DNA of 64,000 bases from Polyangiaceae bacterium (GCA_019637265.1 JAHBVY010000002.1:124001-188000); one strand, 5' to 3'; shown: positions 26,066 through 33,860, counted from the first letter of the stretch. Notes: a model not told the origin generated them from the sequence alone. Program-made: numbers and translations.

Positions 26066-27013
26066 ATGGAGGAGGCCCCCGACGCCGCCCAGCTCATCAC
26101 CGACGCGGCCGCGTCCTTCGTCACCCCGGCGCTCGCGCCCGCCGTCCGTGAGGCGCTGGCGCCGGTGTTCGCAGGCTCTGAGCCCGAAGAGCGGCGCGCG
26201 CTCCTGCACCGGCTGCTCACCACCGGCGACGGTTGGGGCTACTTCCCGCCCTGCCCGCTCGCGCGCCGCGTCAACCTGGCGCTGGGGCACCTGACGGTGC
26301 TGCCCAGCTCGCGCTTGATGGGGGCGGAGCAGCTGAGCGCGCTGCAAGAGCGCGAGGTGGTGTACCTCGCCAACCACCTGAGCTTCTCCGACGCGAACCT
26401 GTTCGCCTACTTGCTGGAGCGCGATGGGCACGACCGCATCGGTGATCGCCTGTGCGTGCTGGCCGGCCCCAAGGTGTTCACCGATCCGTTCCGGCGCTTC
26501 TCCAGCTTGTGCTTCGGCGCGATCAAGCTGCCCCAGAGCCCGACCCGCGCCTCGGGCGAGGCCGTGATGCCGCGGCGCGAGGTGGCGCGCGTCGCCGCGG
26601 TGACGATCGCGGCCAGCATGGAGCGGCTGGCTCAGGGCGACCACCTGATGATCTTCGTGGAGGGCGCGCGGAGCCGCACCGCCGCGATGCAGCCAGCGCT
26701 CGGCGCCGTGTCACGCTACCTGGAGCGGCCAGACACCTTGCTGGTGCCGCTCGGCATCGTGGGCAGCGAGCTGCTGGTGCCCATCGGCGAGGAGCACGGA
26801 CACCCCACCCAGGTGACGATCCACGTCGGTGCGCCGATCGAAGCCGCCCGGCTTTGGCGCGCCACGGAGCACAAACGGGGCCTCTTGATGCACGCGGTGG
26901 GCGCCGCCATCGCGCAGCTCTTGCCGCCCGCCTACCAGGGCTACTACGCCGCCACGAACCCAGACGACGAGCTGGCTCGAGCGCGCGCCGCGCTGCGCGC
27001 TGCGTCAGTGTGA
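26066..27013 (+). CDS. PlsC-family 1-acylglycerol-3-phosphate O-acyltransferase-like protein
   Basis: Membrane-associated acyltransferase of phospholipid synthesis or remodelling. 315 residues. Catalytic motif I is NHLSFSD (H-x4-D) in VVYLANHLSFSDANLFAYLL; the glycerol-phosphate motif is FVEGARSRTAAM (EGxRSR); then LVPLGIVGSELLVP. The N-terminal 90 residues form an added helical region; no strong membrane helix is seen. The last codons carry CGTCAGTGTGACG, spanning the stop. Acyl acceptor unknown. Confidence 0.88.
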   Translation: MEEAPDAAQLITDAAASFVTPALAPAVREALAPVFAGSEPEERRALLHRLLTTGDGWGYFPPCPLARRVNLALGHLTVLPSSRLMGAEQLSALQEREVVYLANHLSFSDANLFAYLLERDGHDRIGDRLCVLAGPKVFTDPFRRFSSLCFGAIKLPQSPTRASGEAVMPRREVARVAAVTIAASMERLAQGDHLMIFVEGARSRTAAMQPALGAVSRYLERPDTLLVPLGIVGSELLVPIGEEHGHPTQVTIHVGAPIEAARLWRATEHKRGLLMHAVGAAIAQLLPPAYQGYYAATNPDDELARARAALRAASV

Positions 27014-28933: not shown

Positions 28934-29932
28934 ATGCCCCTCCAACGCTTAGTCACTCGTCTGAAGCCTCAGGGTTACGGGGCCAGCTGGGCCTACGCCT
29001 CGCTTGGGGTGGTCCCGGCGGGACTGCTCTTGGTGCACGCCGTCATTGGCCTGGGCTCGGAGCACTACGCCATGGCGGCGGCGTTCTTGGTGCTCGCCTG
29101 GGTGGGTCCCCGCGCGCGGCAGTTCTCGGCGCTGGTCGCGCCGTTCGCGCTGTGCGGCCTCACCTACCAGTTCTTGCCGCTGATCATGCCGCTGCGCGGC
29201 GACATCGACGTCGCCTTCATTTGGGAGCTCGAGCGCGCGCTGTTCAGCGTGGGGGATGGCCCCACCCTGGGTGACGCCCTGGCGGCGCGGCCTCACCCCG
29301 TGCTCGATACCGTCAGCGGCCTTGTCTACATCACCTACTTCGCGCAGATCATCCTGCTCACCGCCTGGTTTCATTTCCGCGGGGATCCATCGCGCGCGCT
29401 GCGCGTGGGGCTCGCCTTCGCGGTCCTGAACGTGATGGGCTGGGTCACCTGGGTGCTCCTGTGGCCCGCCGCCCCGCCTTGGTACGTGGACATCTATGGC
29501 CTCGGCCCCGCGGTGATGGACGCCGCGCCGAGCGCGGCGGGCGCGCTGCGCTTCGACGCGCTGATCGGGGTGCCGCTCTTCCACGACTACTACGCCAAGT
29601 CGACCAACGTGTTCGGCGCCATGCCCTCGCTCCACATGGGCTACGCCACGCTCGCGGCGATCGCTGGCTGGCGCTTCAACCGCCCAGTGCGGATCTTCTC
29701 GCTCGGCTACGCGCTCTTGATGGCGTTCTCCGCCATGTACCTGCGCCACCACTACCTGCTCGATCTAGTCGCCGGCGCCGCCTACGCAGCGGGCGCCTAC
29801 TTCGTGATCGGCTGGGCCATGGCGCGCAGCAAGGCGCGTTCCCACGTGGGATCTGACGAGCGCCAGCCGAGCGAGGCGGCCGAGCTCGCGCCGAGCGGGC
29901 AGCCCAGCCAAGAGGCCCAGCTCACCCAGTGA
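28934..29932 (+). CDS. PAP2_3 (Aur1-like) integral membrane phosphatase/lipid transferase
   Basis: Likely a lipid head-group transferase or phosphatase of the inositolphosphoryl-ceramide-synthase (Aur1) fold. 332 residues with at least six membrane helices (for example SLGVVPAGLLLVHAVIGLG, YITYFAQIILLTAW, VLNVMGWVTWVLLWPAAPPW). Catalytic motifs: GAMPSLHMGYATLAA (His234) and MYLRHHYLLDLVAG (His273, Asp277), typical of PAP2/Aur1 active sites facing the periplasm. The tail is hydrophilic. Its stop overlaps the MMPL gene by four bases (GTGA), which itself overlaps a CDP-alcohol phosphotransferase: all three should act on one lipid. Confidence 0.88.
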   Translation: MPLQRLVTRLKPQGYGASWAYASLGVVPAGLLLVHAVIGLGSEHYAMAAAFLVLAWVGPRARQFSALVAPFALCGLTYQFLPLIMPLRGDIDVAFIWELERALFSVGDGPTLGDALAARPHPVLDTVSGLVYITYFAQIILLTAWFHFRGDPSRALRVGLAFAVLNVMGWVTWVLLWPAAPPWYVDIYGLGPAVMDAAPSAAGALRFDALIGVPLFHDYYAKSTNVFGAMPSLHMGYATLAAIAGWRFNRPVRIFSLGYALLMAFSAMYLRHHYLLDLVAGAAYAAGAYFVIGWAMARSKARSHVGSDERQPSEAAELAPSGQPSQEAQLTQ

Positions 29933-32442
29933 CCCAGCCGGCGGACCCCAGCGGCGCCGAGGAGCGCGCGAGCGGCGTCGCCCTACGCATCGGCGCGGCG
30001 CTGGCGTTCATCGCCGTCCATTGCTTTCGGCGGCCGCTCCAGGCGCTGCTGGCCGTGGTGCTGGTGCTGGCGGCGGCAGGCTACGGTGTTTCCAAGCTGA
30101 AAATCGATCCGGACATCGCCGAGCTCTTGCCGCCCAGCTATGAGAGCGTGCAAGACCTGGAGACGCTGAAGCAGCGCTTCGGCGGGGTGGGCTACGTGGT
30201 GCTGCTGCTCGACGGCGGCACCCCGGAGGCGCGGCGCGCCGTCGCGAAGGGGCTGGCGCCAGAGCTCGCCGCGCTGCCAAGCGTCTCCTACGTGGAGGTA
30301 GAGCGCCCAGCTGCCTACCTGCGCTCCAAGGCGCTGTGGCTGTTCGAGGTGGACGACCTGCGCGAGCTCGAGCGGCGCGTCCGCATCCGCTACCACTACG
30401 ACATCGAGCGCTCCTTCCTCGACCTCGACGATCGGGCGCCGCCCAGCGTGAAGGTGGATGACCTGGTGGCGAAGCTCGAGGCGCGCTTCGGGGGGCTCCA
30501 GGGGGGCGATGACGCGCCCTCGACTTACTACGAGGACGCCTCACGCCTGGCGGTGTTCGTGCGCCCGACGGAGCTCGCCTCCAACCTCGACTTCTCGCGG
30601 CGCGTGGTGGCGGAGGTGGAGCAGGTCGCCGCCAAGAGCGCTGCCCTCACGGCGCACCCCGAGGTGCGCTTCGAGCTCACGGGTCGCTACAAGAAGCGGG
30701 TCGACTTGCAGGAGGTGCTCGCGAGCGATCTGCGGCTCACCTCCATCGTCTCGATCTTGCTGGTGGCGGGCTACCTCGCGCTGCACTTCCGGCGCTGGAC
30801 GGCGATCGTGCTGCTCATCATCCCGCTGAACGCGGGGCTGCTCTTGGCGTACGGCCTGGCGGCGGCGACGTTCGGCAGCCTGAACATCCTCACCACCTTC
30901 CTCGGCGCCATCTTGGTGGGGATCGGGGTGGACAGCGGCATCCACATCCTGGGCAGGGTGCATGAGGTGGCGGCGGGCGGCGCCTCTCAGGAGGAGGCGG
31001 TGCGCGTCGCCTTCCGCGACGCCGGGCGTGTGTCCCTCGCGGCCATGCTCACCACCGCCGCGGCCTTCATGTGCCTCACGGTGACGGATTTCCGCGCCTT
31101 CCGTGAGTTCGGGGTGCTCACCGCCGCGGGCGTGCTGCTGGTCTTCCTCTGCTACCTCTTCATGCTCCCGGCGCTCATTAGCTTGGCTGACCGTACCCGG
31201 CTCACGCGGCACCGCGCGGCGGCCGCGAGCCTCCCCGGCACCGGCTGGCTCGGCCGGCGGGCGCGGCTGGTGGTGCCGGTGATGGGCCTCGCGGCGTTGA
31301 TCTTCGCCGGCCTCTCGGCGCGGGTGCACTTCGACTCCGACTTCTCACGCCTGGACGACGCCGACCTCCCGAGCTTCCGGCTGGACCGTCAGGTGACCGA
31401 GCTGCTCGGGCGCTCCCAGACGCCGCTCGTGGCCTTCCCAGAGAACGACAGCCAGGCCACCCAAGCCGCGGAGGTCGCGCGGGAGCGCATGCGCCAGGCG
31501 GGCACGCTGGCCACCATCGGTGAGGTGGTGACGCTCTCCGAGCTGGTGCCGCCCGACGTCGAGGCCCGCGCGCCCTACGTCACCTCGGTCCAGAAGATGC
31601 TCTCCCGCATCGCGCGCGGCGATCAACGGGAGGAGCTGCTCCGCTCCTTCCCCGACCTGGACGCCCTGATCGAGGCGACCGCCCCCACCAAGGAGAGCCT
31701 CCCCGAGAGCCTGCGTCAGGTGCTGACGCCCCAAGACGGCGAGGCCGCCACGCCGCTGATGTTGCTCTACCCGAGCGTGTCTTTGTCGGACGCCGAGGCC
31801 GTGCGCCGCACCGCCGATCAGGTGCGCCACCTGAGCCTCGAGTCGGGGGAGGTGGTGCGCACCGCGGGTGAGCCGATCATCCTGGCGGACATCCTGAAGC
31901 TGATCGCTCAAGACGGCCCGCGCATCCTGCTCCTGACCCTGGTGTTCATCTTCGTGTTCCTGCGGCTCACCCTGGGCAGTTTCCGCATGGCAACGCTCGC
32001 CACCGTCCCCGCCGTGCTGACGCTGCTCGTCACCGCCGGCGCCGTGGCGGCGTTCGGGCTGTCCTTGAACATGCTGAACATCATCATCTTGCCCATCTTG
32101 CTGGGCATCGGCGTCGATGATGGCGCGCACCTCTTGGCGCGCATCGAGGCCGGGGAGCCGCTGCCCGTGGTGTGGCGCCACACCGGCGCTGACGTGGGCG
32201 GCGCCATCCTCACGGATGCCTTCGGCTTCGGTGCCCTGGCGCTGGCGGCGCACCCGGGGCTCGCGAGCCTGGGTCAGGTCGCGCTGATCGGCCTCGCCGC
32301 CAACTTCCTCATCTGCGTGGTGCTGCTGCCCGCCGTGCTCAGCCTCGTGCCCTTGGTGCGCGTGCGAGCGGCCGCCAGCGCCACGCTGAACGACACCGAG
32401 GTGTCTGCTGACGGCGTCCTCACTCACCGGAGAACTCCATGA
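29929..32442 (+). CDS. MMPL/RND-family lipid exporter (HpnN-like)
   Basis: Proton-driven transporter that moves hydrophobic lipids across the cell envelope. 837 residues from GTG 29929. Two repeats, each a large periplasmic loop followed by membrane helices: helix 1 near 35, loop about 60-260, helices 270-430 (NILTTFLGAILVGIGVDSGI, AAMLTTAAAFMCLTVTDF); then helix about 445, loop 465-655 and helices 655-810 (LNIIILPILLGIGVDDGAHL). GIGVDSG and GIGVDDG carry the transmembrane Asp residues used for proton coupling. Overlaps both neighbours by four bases. HpnN exports hopanoids, but here the neighbours favour a polar phospholipid or sphingolipid. Confidence 0.88.
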   Translation: MTQPADPSGAEERASGVALRIGAALAFIAVHCFRRPLQALLAVVLVLAAAGYGVSKLKIDPDIAELLPPSYESVQDLETLKQRFGGVGYVVLLLDGGTPEARRAVAKGLAPELAALPSVSYVEVERPAAYLRSKALWLFEVDDLRELERRVRIRYHYDIERSFLDLDDRAPPSVKVDDLVAKLEARFGGLQGGDDAPSTYYEDASRLAVFVRPTELASNLDFSRRVVAEVEQVAAKSAALTAHPEVRFELTGRYKKRVDLQEVLASDLRLTSIVSILLVAGYLALHFRRWTAIVLLIIPLNAGLLLAYGLAAATFGSLNILTTFLGAILVGIGVDSGIHILGRVHEVAAGGASQEEAVRVAFRDAGRVSLAAMLTTAAAFMCLTVTDFRAFREFGVLTAAGVLLVFLCYLFMLPALISLADRTRLTRHRAAAASLPGTGWLGRRARLVVPVMGLAALIFAGLSARVHFDSDFSRLDDADLPSFRLDRQVTELLGRSQTPLVAFPENDSQATQAAEVARERMRQAGTLATIGEVVTLSELVPPDVEARAPYVTSVQKMLSRIARGDQREELLRSFPDLDALIEATAPTKESLPESLRQVLTPQDGEAATPLMLLYPSVSLSDAEAVRRTADQVRHLSLESGEVVRTAGEPIILADILKLIAQDGPRILLLTLVFIFVFLRLTLGSFRMATLATVPAVLTLLVTAGAVAAFGLSLNMLNIIILPILLGIGVDDGAHLLARIEAGEPLPVVWRHTGADVGGAILTDAFGFGALALAAHPGLASLGQVALIGLAANFLICVVLLPAVLSLVPLVRVRAAASATLNDTEVSADGVLTHRRTP

Positions 32443-33710
32443 ATCAGAGCGAACTCGTGGCCCTGGAGGTCGTAGATGGGCTCCTCACGCCGGGCGGCTT
32501 GTCCCCCACGGCGCGCGTGCTCGGCGCGGTCAGCCCGGCGCTCTTGCTCCTCTTCTACCTCGTCATCGCCTACCTCGTGTTCCGCTTCACGAAGTCGGGG
32601 CGCGACTACACCGACGCCGAGGTGAAAGATCGCAAGACGGGGCTCTCCACGCCGGGGGTCCGCGTGTTCTTCTCGTGGCTGATGCGCCCGTGGTTCTCGC
32701 TGCTGGTGCGCGCTGATTTTCCGCCCAATGCCATCACCACGGTCTCCCTCGGCATCTCCCTCGCGGCGGGCGTGGCGCTGGCGGCGGGTCGCTTCGCGCT
32801 CGGCGGTTGGCTGTTCGCGTTGGCCGGCGCCTGTGACTTCTTCGATGGGCGCCTCGCGCGGATGAAGAACATCGCCTCGCCTCAGGGCGCGGCTTTGGAC
32901 AGTGTGGTTGACCGTTATTCGGAGTCCGCCGTGCTGATGGGCCTGGCGTGGTACTACCGCGACACCTGGGTGTTGTTCCCGGCGCTGCTCGCCCTGGTGG
33001 GCTCCTTGCTGGTGCCCTACGTGCGCGCCAAGGCAGAGGCGCTGTCCGTACCGCTCCAAGAGGTGGGCTGGCTCCAGCGCCCGGAGCGGGTGGCGCTGCT
33101 CGCTTCGACGACGGCCCTGGCGCCGATCCTCGAGGTGATCATCAACCCGGGGAACCCGCGGCCGCTCCACTGGCTCACCGTGCTGGGTCTGTTGATCCTG
33201 GGGGTGGGCACGCAGATCACGGCGGCGCAGCGCACCCACAAGCTGGTGAAGCTGCTCGCACCCACGCCGCCTTCGGGTTGCCCAGCGCCGAAGCCGGTCA
33301 GTCAGCTGCGGGTGCTCTCGTCGAGCGGCCTCGCGACCGCCTCGGACATGGGGCTCGTGGCCTTCTTGGTGTGGGTGTTCAGCGGCGGCGCGTCGTTGCC
33401 CGTGGCCACCGCCGCGGGCTGCCTGCTCGGCGCCTTGGTCAACTTCACGCTCAATCGCTACTGGGCGTTCCAGGCCACAGAGGGCTCCATCATGGGTCAG
33501 GCGCGGCGCTACACCATCGCCTCCCTCACCAGCGCGGCGCTCAACGCCGGCGGCGTGGCGGTGGTCGCCCTGTTGCCGAACGTGCCGGACGCCATCGCCT
33601 GGCTGCTGGTGCGCGGCACCGTGTTCGGGGTGTGGACGCTGCCGCTCTACCGCACCTACGTCTTCGAGCAGGTCAGCTTCCGGCCGCTGGTCGAGCAGCG
33701 GAGCGCCTGA
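32439..33710 (+). CDS. CDP-alcohol phosphatidyltransferase fused to a GtrA-like domain
   Basis: Makes a phospholipid-type bond between a CDP-activated lipid and an alcohol such as inositol phosphate, or vice versa. 423 residues. The N-terminal enzyme domain (about 75-275) has the complete CDP-AP signature CDFFDGRLAR...GAALDSVVD: Asp133, Asp136, Gly137, Ala140, Arg141, Gly150, Asp154 and Asp158. A GtrA domain follows (about 285-415, four helices, NFTLNRYWAF), usually involved in polyprenyl-linked sugar flipping. Starts with ATGA overlap on the MMPL gene. The 3' end was duplicated in tandem (repeat from 33692), placing the stop inside the repeat unit. Alcohol acceptor unknown; phosphatidylinositol-phosphate-type synthesis is the best guess. 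Confidence 0.88.
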   Translation: MNQSELVALEVVDGLLTPGGLSPTARVLGAVSPALLLLFYLVIAYLVFRFTKSGRDYTDAEVKDRKTGLSTPGVRVFFSWLMRPWFSLLVRADFPPNAITTVSLGISLAAGVALAAGRFALGGWLFALAGACDFFDGRLARMKNIASPQGAALDSVVDRYSESAVLMGLAWYYRDTWVLFPALLALVGSLLVPYVRAKAEALSVPLQEVGWLQRPERVALLASTTALAPILEVIINPGNPRPLHWLTVLGLLILGVGTQITAAQRTHKLVKLLAPTPPSGCPAPKPVSQLRVLSSSGLATASDMGLVAFLVWVFSGGASLPVATAAGCLLGALVNFTLNRYWAFQATEGSIMGQARRYTIASLTSAALNAGGVAVVALLPNVPDAIAWLLVRGTVFGVWTLPLYRTYVFEQVSFRPLVEQRSA

Positions 33711-33860
33711 TTCCGCCGTTCGCCCCATGGCAGCGACACCGACGGCACCACCCAACGCCCGTACGAGCAGCAGAGCACCTGATTCCGCCGTTCGCCCCAT
33801 GGCAGCGACACCAACGGCACCACCCAACGCCCGTACGAGCAGCAGAGCACCTGATTCCGC
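33692..33860 (+). repeat. 72-bp tandem repeat including the end of the phosphotransferase gene
   Basis: GAGCGCCTGATTCCG (33701), GAGCACCTGATTCCG (33773) and again at 33845: two full units and a partial third, period exactly 72. Each unit contains CGAGCAGCxGAGCxCCTGA, the last codons and stop of the gene, and CGCCCCATGGCAGCGACACC. The duplication therefore started inside the coding sequence. Confidence 0.9.

Follow-up and report, generated by a model that had tools for sequence, protein, structure and literature searches.

A three-gene operon in a Polyangiaceae bacterium probably makes inositol phosphorylceramide (IPC), also called ceramide phosphoinositol, and transports this lipid outwards. 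Inositol-bearing sphingolipids are better known from fungi and plants. The operon lies in the window analysed here, a stretch of 64,000 nucleotides (G000:C12:124001-188000) from a 5.7 Mb genome, and the closest named relatives of its locus belong to Polyangium. The original prediction was that the three genes serve an inositol- or polyol-phosphate lipid, possibly a sphingolipid. It is largely supported by protein family profiles, by a fold shared with the yeast IPC synthase Aur1, by the residues of a phosphatidylinositol-phosphate synthase (PIPS) and by gene order in other genomes.

Organisation of the operon

The three open reading frames lie on the plus strand at 28934-29932, 29929-32442 and 32439-33710. 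Their coordinates and frames were verified, and codon-position GC in all three is consistent with real genes. They encode, in this order, an Aur1-like PAP2_3 protein of 332 aa (predicted IPC synthase), an RND/MMPL transporter of 837 aa from the HpnN-like branch (predicted lipid exporter), and a 423 aa fusion of a CDP-alcohol phosphotransferase (CDP-AP), the predicted PIPS, to a four-helix GtrA domain. Both proposed four-base overlaps are present: GTGA at 29929-29932 joins the PAP2 stop to the RND start, and ATGA at 32439-32442 joins the RND stop to the CDP-AP start. The four protein families named in the original prediction were all confirmed by Pfam matches above curated cut-offs, with E-values of 1.8e-24 for PAP2_3 (PF14378), 1.1e-36 for MMPL (PF03176), 8e-15 for CDP-OH_P_transf (PF01066) and 1.6e-11 for GtrA (PF04138), and the catalytic and transporter motifs it listed were found where it had placed them.

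The nearest upstream neighbour is an Fe(2+)-trafficking gene (PF04362; 28312-28581, minus strand), which is divergent from the operon and outside it. A PlsC-like acyltransferase gene (26066-27013) is found on the same strand as the operon, about 2 kb upstream, with opposite-strand genes between. At the downstream end, a tandem repeat with a 72-bp unit (2.3 copies, 96% matches; 33692-33860) starts within the final codons of CDP-AP::GtrA and continues into the gap that follows.

The PAP2 protein resembles yeast Aur1

The PAP2 protein carries the catalytic motifs GAMPSLH (residues 228-234, including His234; 29615-29635, plus strand) and HHYLLD (residues 272-277, including His273 and Asp277; 29747-29764, plus strand). 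Residues P231, S232, H234, H272, H273 and D277 were invariant in an alignment of 51 homologues. Its sole NCBIfam match was NF052609, phosphoinositol dihydroceramide synthase (1.3e-40), at 139.7 bits and thus below the equivalog cut-off of 480; the Myxococcus xanthus PAP2 protein reached the same score (140). The genome's second PAP2_3 protein, at C1:115231, had no match in the NCBIfam profile search and was not considered further.

Yeast AUR1 gave the only PDB sequence matches of the PAP2 protein (1.8e-22). An AlphaFold2 model built from 51 sequences had a pLDDT of 92, and when it was used in a Foldseek search Aur1 alone fell below E 0.001 (best 5e-11). Alignment with VIA-align gave Z 25.2 over 292 residues (rmsd 5.9) and Z 24.8 over 264 residues (rmsd 5.1) for two Aur1 entries. 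For the PAP2 phosphatases the aligned spans were 163-193 residues, with LpxE at Z 16.8 over 163 residues and PgpB lower. The likeness to Aur1 is thus a nearly full-length fold match (Z 25) with about 27% identity and the catalytic His/His/Asp motifs, whilst the window protein differs in being bacterial and in having a predicted substrate.

The CDP-alcohol phosphotransferase is PIPS-like

The catalytic domain of the fusion protein (residues 96-228; 32724-33122, plus strand) contains the full set of signature aspartates, Asp133, Asp136, Asp154 and Asp158. Inositol-phosphate enzymes ranked first among its NCBIfam profiles, at 127, 105 and 100 bits (1e-28 to 7e-37). The 105 bits obtained against the PIPS equivalog NF045883 lie below its 170-bit cut-off, and the pgsA equivalog TIGR00560 gave 29.4 bits (E 1e-6) against a cut-off of 109.1. 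In a fold search with the fusion model, all best matches were PIPS crystal structures and PGP synthase structures ranked far lower. Three arginines of the Mycobacterium tuberculosis enzyme PgsA1 (MtPgsA1), R94, R155 and R195, cripple inositol-phosphate use when mutated (PMC4634129, PMC6506517). They align with R159, R217 and R265 of the window protein, the last of these just outside the catalytic domain. The MtPgsA1 pair K135/R137 appears swapped, as R196/K198, and S132 aligns with P193. The enzyme is thus PIPS-like by profile, residues, fold and synteny, short of a proven equivalog. It is closest to PIP synthases, and a PGP synthase identity was rejected on the 29 bits scored against 127 for the best inositol-phosphate type, with the fold search also against it.

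The GtrA domain (residues 297-409; 33327-33665, plus strand) scored 44.8 bits against PF04138, above the cut-off of 26.1. Its four transmembrane helices span residues 286-313, 320-343, 351-376 and 384-408 in the predicted model. The fold search with the whole-fusion model found no convincing solved relative for this part of the protein (5mm1 at E 0.12).

The gene set recurs across genomes

When named genomes were scanned with the PAP2 alignment, 80 loci were returned, giving 81 clusters with the window. Among these, PIPS is present in 56, GtrA in 52 (fused to PIPS in 39), myo-inositol-phosphate synthase (MIPS) in 41, RND in 32, PgpA in 12 and AOS in 6. Dereplication at 70% PAP2 identity left 52 clusters, 25 of them with an RND gene. 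In a phylum-wide sample, 33 of 377 genomes had a close PAP2 relative (E 1e-15 or better). Some sampled genomes are the same record as loci of the scan (G061 is L198, for example), so the class sample and the named-genome set are not independent. Dozens of genomes have members of the PAP2, PIPS, GtrA and RND families next to one another, so the gene arrangement is not chance. Synteny is conserved far beyond close relatives, as the original prediction needed. The same counts overturn its view of the CDP-AP-GtrA fusion as non-standard: 39 of the 81 clusters have it, M. xanthus included, and it is a common form in Myxococcota and normal for myxobacteria.

Gene order varies between genomes. Among the sampled genomes of the class, G061 and G055 have MIPS-PIPS-GtrA-PAP2-PgpA-RND in one row, and in G055 PgpA and PAP2 form a fusion; the row of G107 is alike, but its MIPS gene is an end fragment only. 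PIPS-PAP2 faces RND-GtrA in G111 and G094, and G121 has PIPS-PAP2-RND-GtrA. The closest relatives of all three window proteins, at about 50% identity, are in the Polyangium MIPS-PAP2-PIPS::GtrA-RND clusters (L143-L145). The Polyangium RNDs fall in one clade with that of the window, but the gene order differs, and MIPS, which is inside the Polyangium operon, is on a separate contig in the window genome. In M. xanthus (L161), the cluster is MIPS-PAP2-PIPS::GtrA with genes overlapping or closely spaced. Its PAP2 protein belongs to the family of the window protein (38% identity across residues 3-301) and it has the same PIPS::GtrA fusion (47% to the window), but it differs in having MIPS inside the operon and no RND gene directly beside the cluster. 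A passage of PMC9246714, citing Lorenzen 2014, reports ceramide phosphoryl-inositol from M. xanthus.

The best characterised comparison is Bacteroides thetaiotaomicron, where BT1522 (PAP2), BT1523 (PIPS), BT1525 (PgpA) and BT1526 (MIPS) make phosphatidylinositol (PI) and IPC, with BT1524 as the GtrA protein (PMC8791184, PMC9246714). Neither paper mentions an MMPL protein or a transporter. All five families are also present in the window genome, and they lie in one operon in related myxobacteria; the window operon differs in its PIPS::GtrA fusion, in having MIPS and PgpA at other sites of the genome, and in its inserted RND exporter. Across the 80 named loci, the PAP2 gene is commonly accompanied by PIPS, GtrA and MIPS, and in subsets by PgpA and RND; together these are the components of the BT1522-1526 operon with an exporter added.

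The RND protein and its association with PAP2 clusters

The RND protein contains the motifs GIGVDSG (residues 331-337; 30919-30939) and GIGVDDG (residues 726-732; 32104-32124), both on the plus strand. Its best profiles were HpnN and other HAE-3 families, none above cut-off. At 254 bits against 751.85 for TIGR03480 (HpnN), it is HpnN-like but not HpnN, and its best solved-structure match was also HpnN (PDB 5khn, 1.4e-27). It thus shares with the HpnN and MmpL lipid exporters an RND architecture with two GIGVD motifs, but differs from them in that its neighbours are inositol-lipid genes and not hopanoid genes.

These profile matches would also suit a hopanoid, sterol or drug exporter that is unrelated to the lipid pathway and merely shares the operon as its third gene. 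The genome carries further MMPL-type proteins, and the M. xanthus cluster has no directly adjacent RND. Against this, 25 of the 30 RND matches were within 3 kb of PAP2 (loci dereplicated at 70% PAP2 identity), and RND density there was 6.8 times that beyond 5 kb (binomial p 7e-6, an optimistic value as the loci are related). The RND tree has two deeply split clades, both of which are found in PAP2 clusters. The window RND is inside one of them, where it and the RNDs from the Polyangium clusters and from L146 form a group with 100/100 support. PgpA, of the PIP-phosphatase family, is fused to the RND C-terminus in L146 (12188-15106), L147 (9236-12181), L036 and L041, and the fusion is also listed for G057 and G137, which ties the RND to the inositol-lipid pathway. 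In one genome PgpA is instead fused to PAP2 (L124:5550-6875). On this evidence an unrelated exporter is rather unlikely. The original prediction of a built-in exporter stands in part: an RND gene is present in about half of the dereplicated clusters (25 of 52), and coupled export is a likely role for it, but it is not directly beside the M. xanthus operon. RND in these clusters is thus frequent and not universal.

Partner genes and the link to ceramide

The genome has one MIPS gene, at G000:C1:496054, on a contig other than that of the operon. The expected co-occurrence with MIPS therefore holds at the level of the genome, and MIPS is in the operon itself in about half of the related clusters. 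In this region (L034:8823-14795; G000:C1, about 495.8-501.8 kb) the genes for a nucleotidyltransferase, a nucleotidyltransferase fused to a HisC-like aminotransferase, and a second CDP-AP enzyme run divergently from MIPS, a neighbourhood that is possibly another CDP-activated headgroup pathway. The single PgpA gene, at C18:139907, is outside the operon, whereas several relatives have PgpA inside it.

A candidate serine palmitoyltransferase (SPT) is encoded on the contig of the operon, with NF047600 as its best model (451 bits, cut-off 640). It stands in a row with a GNAT-like protein, an assignment that rests on weak Pfam hits in relatives, and an SDR, forming a candidate ceramide operon. The SPT reading frame (L099:10194-11873) has an N-terminal extension of about 160 residues with no Pfam match, and its start codon is provisional. 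The other two AOS-family proteins of the genome are glycine C-acetyltransferase and BioF. The same gene trio occurs in Saprospiraceae (L205), where SPT-GNAT-SDR-MIPS-PgpA-GtrA-PIPS-PAP2 lie in one locus, the SPT there being a fragment that is clearly recognisable as SPT. Opitutaceae have AOS-GNAT-PAP2 rows in which the AOS is not clearly an SPT by profile. By gene neighbourhood, these two arrangements would tie PAP2 to ceramide.

The original prediction also looked to co-occurrence with SPT. A candidate SPT is indeed present in the genome, but strict co-occurrence of the inositol module with the SPT of this genome was not found, as only 8 of 144 class genomes have such an enzyme (E 1e-120 or better). 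In six module-bearing genomes of this 144-genome sample a different AOS clade replaces this SPT, and a degenerate ketosynthase adjoins it in those examined. Thus ceramide may not be the acceptor everywhere, and the backbone lipid of these six relatives is uncertain. The members of this AOS clade are seen in Polyangiaceae and relatives (among them L104, L107, L101, L114 and L116).

Proposed pathway

The steps from inositol phosphate to IPC would follow the Bacteroides pathway, a reading well supported by sequence, fold and synteny. MIPS would supply inositol phosphate, which the CDP-AP domain would join to CDP-diacylglycerol on the cytoplasmic side to give PIP. The PgpA-type phosphatase encoded elsewhere in the genome would then take the phosphate off PIP to give PI, and the Aur1-like PAP2 protein would move phosphoinositol from PI onto ceramide, with release of diacylglycerol. 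A phosphoinositol lipid is very probably the product, and ceramide is a probable acceptor. Counting against this reading, MIPS, PgpA and SPT are all outside the window operon, and the PAP2, PIPS and SPT scores are below the NCBIfam equivalog cut-offs, although these thresholds were probably shaped by references from other phyla.

The active sites of Aur1 and PAP2 proteins face the side of the membrane opposite the cytoplasm, and a flipping role is commonly proposed for GtrA proteins. The inositol-phosphate pocket of PIPS faces the cytoplasm (PMC6506517). Because these sites are on opposite faces, PI would have to cross the membrane between PIPS and PAP2, and we propose that PI(P) is presented, or flipped across the inner membrane, by the GtrA domain that is fused to PIPS. 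GtrA proteins have been linked to lipid-linked glycan synthesis, and in Bacteroides deletion of the GtrA protein lowered IPC and raised PI (PMC8791184). The effect is disputed, as TLC was unchanged in a second study (PMC9246714). The former result would fit a flipping role and the latter would not, and we put the flippase assignment forward tentatively. The HpnN-like RND would take either the completed lipid or PI towards the outer membrane, and we lean cautiously towards it as the exporter of the inositol lipid. A full make-flip-finish-export line for inositol sphingolipids is a speculative extension that we hold to be doubtful. Here GtrA would be the PI(P) flippase, RNDs of two clades, some fused to PgpA, would be dedicated outer-membrane exporters of inositol lipids, and a sister form with dehydrogenase and aminotransferase would make amino-inositol sphingolipids.

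Alternative products

The operon might instead make and export PI, a glycerolipid, with the PAP2 protein acting as a PIP phosphatase or other lipid phosphatase and not as a transferase to ceramide. Members of the PAP2 superfamily are often phosphatases, and no PgpA gene lies within the window operon. Moreover, clusters in G057, G137 and G064 contain PIPS::GtrA or PIPS with RND and/or PgpA but no Aur1-like PAP2, so that PI itself may be the substrate of GtrA and RND. However, several relatives have PgpA and PAP2 within one operon (G107, G061, G013, L201 and L206), so the phosphatase slot is already filled there, and in Opitutaceae PAP2 lies directly behind the AOS and GNAT-like genes. Separate PgpA genes and an Aur1-like fold over nearly the whole length make a plain phosphatase less likely, and we regard PI as an improbable end product.

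The same chemistry could also act on a different polyol phosphate, such as amino-inositol. Sister clusters of the form MIPS - Gfo/Idh/MocA dehydrogenase - PIPS(::GtrA) - class III aminotransferase - PAP2 - RND (L125, L039, L197, L202, L211 and L218; also L204, L216, L182 and L219) add an inositol-dehydrogenase-like oxidoreductase and an aminotransferase, the latter present in 12 of the 81 clusters. At the PIPS position that corresponds to MtPgsA1 K135, close to the inositol ring, 10 of 11 sequences from clusters with the aminotransferase have Thr/Ser, and 39 of 44 from clusters without it have Arg. This suggests that the sister clusters make amino-inositol lipids; a literature search on such lipids in bacteria found no paper. 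The window operon, however, has neither extra gene, its PIPS has Arg196 at this position, and its nearest relatives (Polyangium and L146) have MIPS and no aminotransferase. An amino-inositol or other non-inositol headgroup is thus very unlikely for the window operon, and IPC is the product we favour.

Significance

In the literature collection searched, no paper names ceramide phosphoinositol genes in myxobacteria. The operon gives candidates for these genes, including in M. xanthus, which is genetically tractable. A paper from 2024 on bacterial sphingolipid enzymes in Caulobacter stated that the flippases and lipid transporters for sphingolipids were unidentified (PMC11087976), though a possible flippase gene and an additional LptCFG set have been suggested in that organism (PMC11324152). 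For the flippase and transporter roles, the GtrA fusion and the RND that adjoins the pathway or is fused to it are concrete candidates. What is new here, as a proposal, is the arrangement of a cytoplasmic-face PIPS fused to a candidate GtrA flippase, with PAP2 predicted on the far side of the membrane and an RND that is adjacent, or fused in relatives. The gene set may also serve as a marker for finding inositol sphingolipids in the genomes of several phyla.
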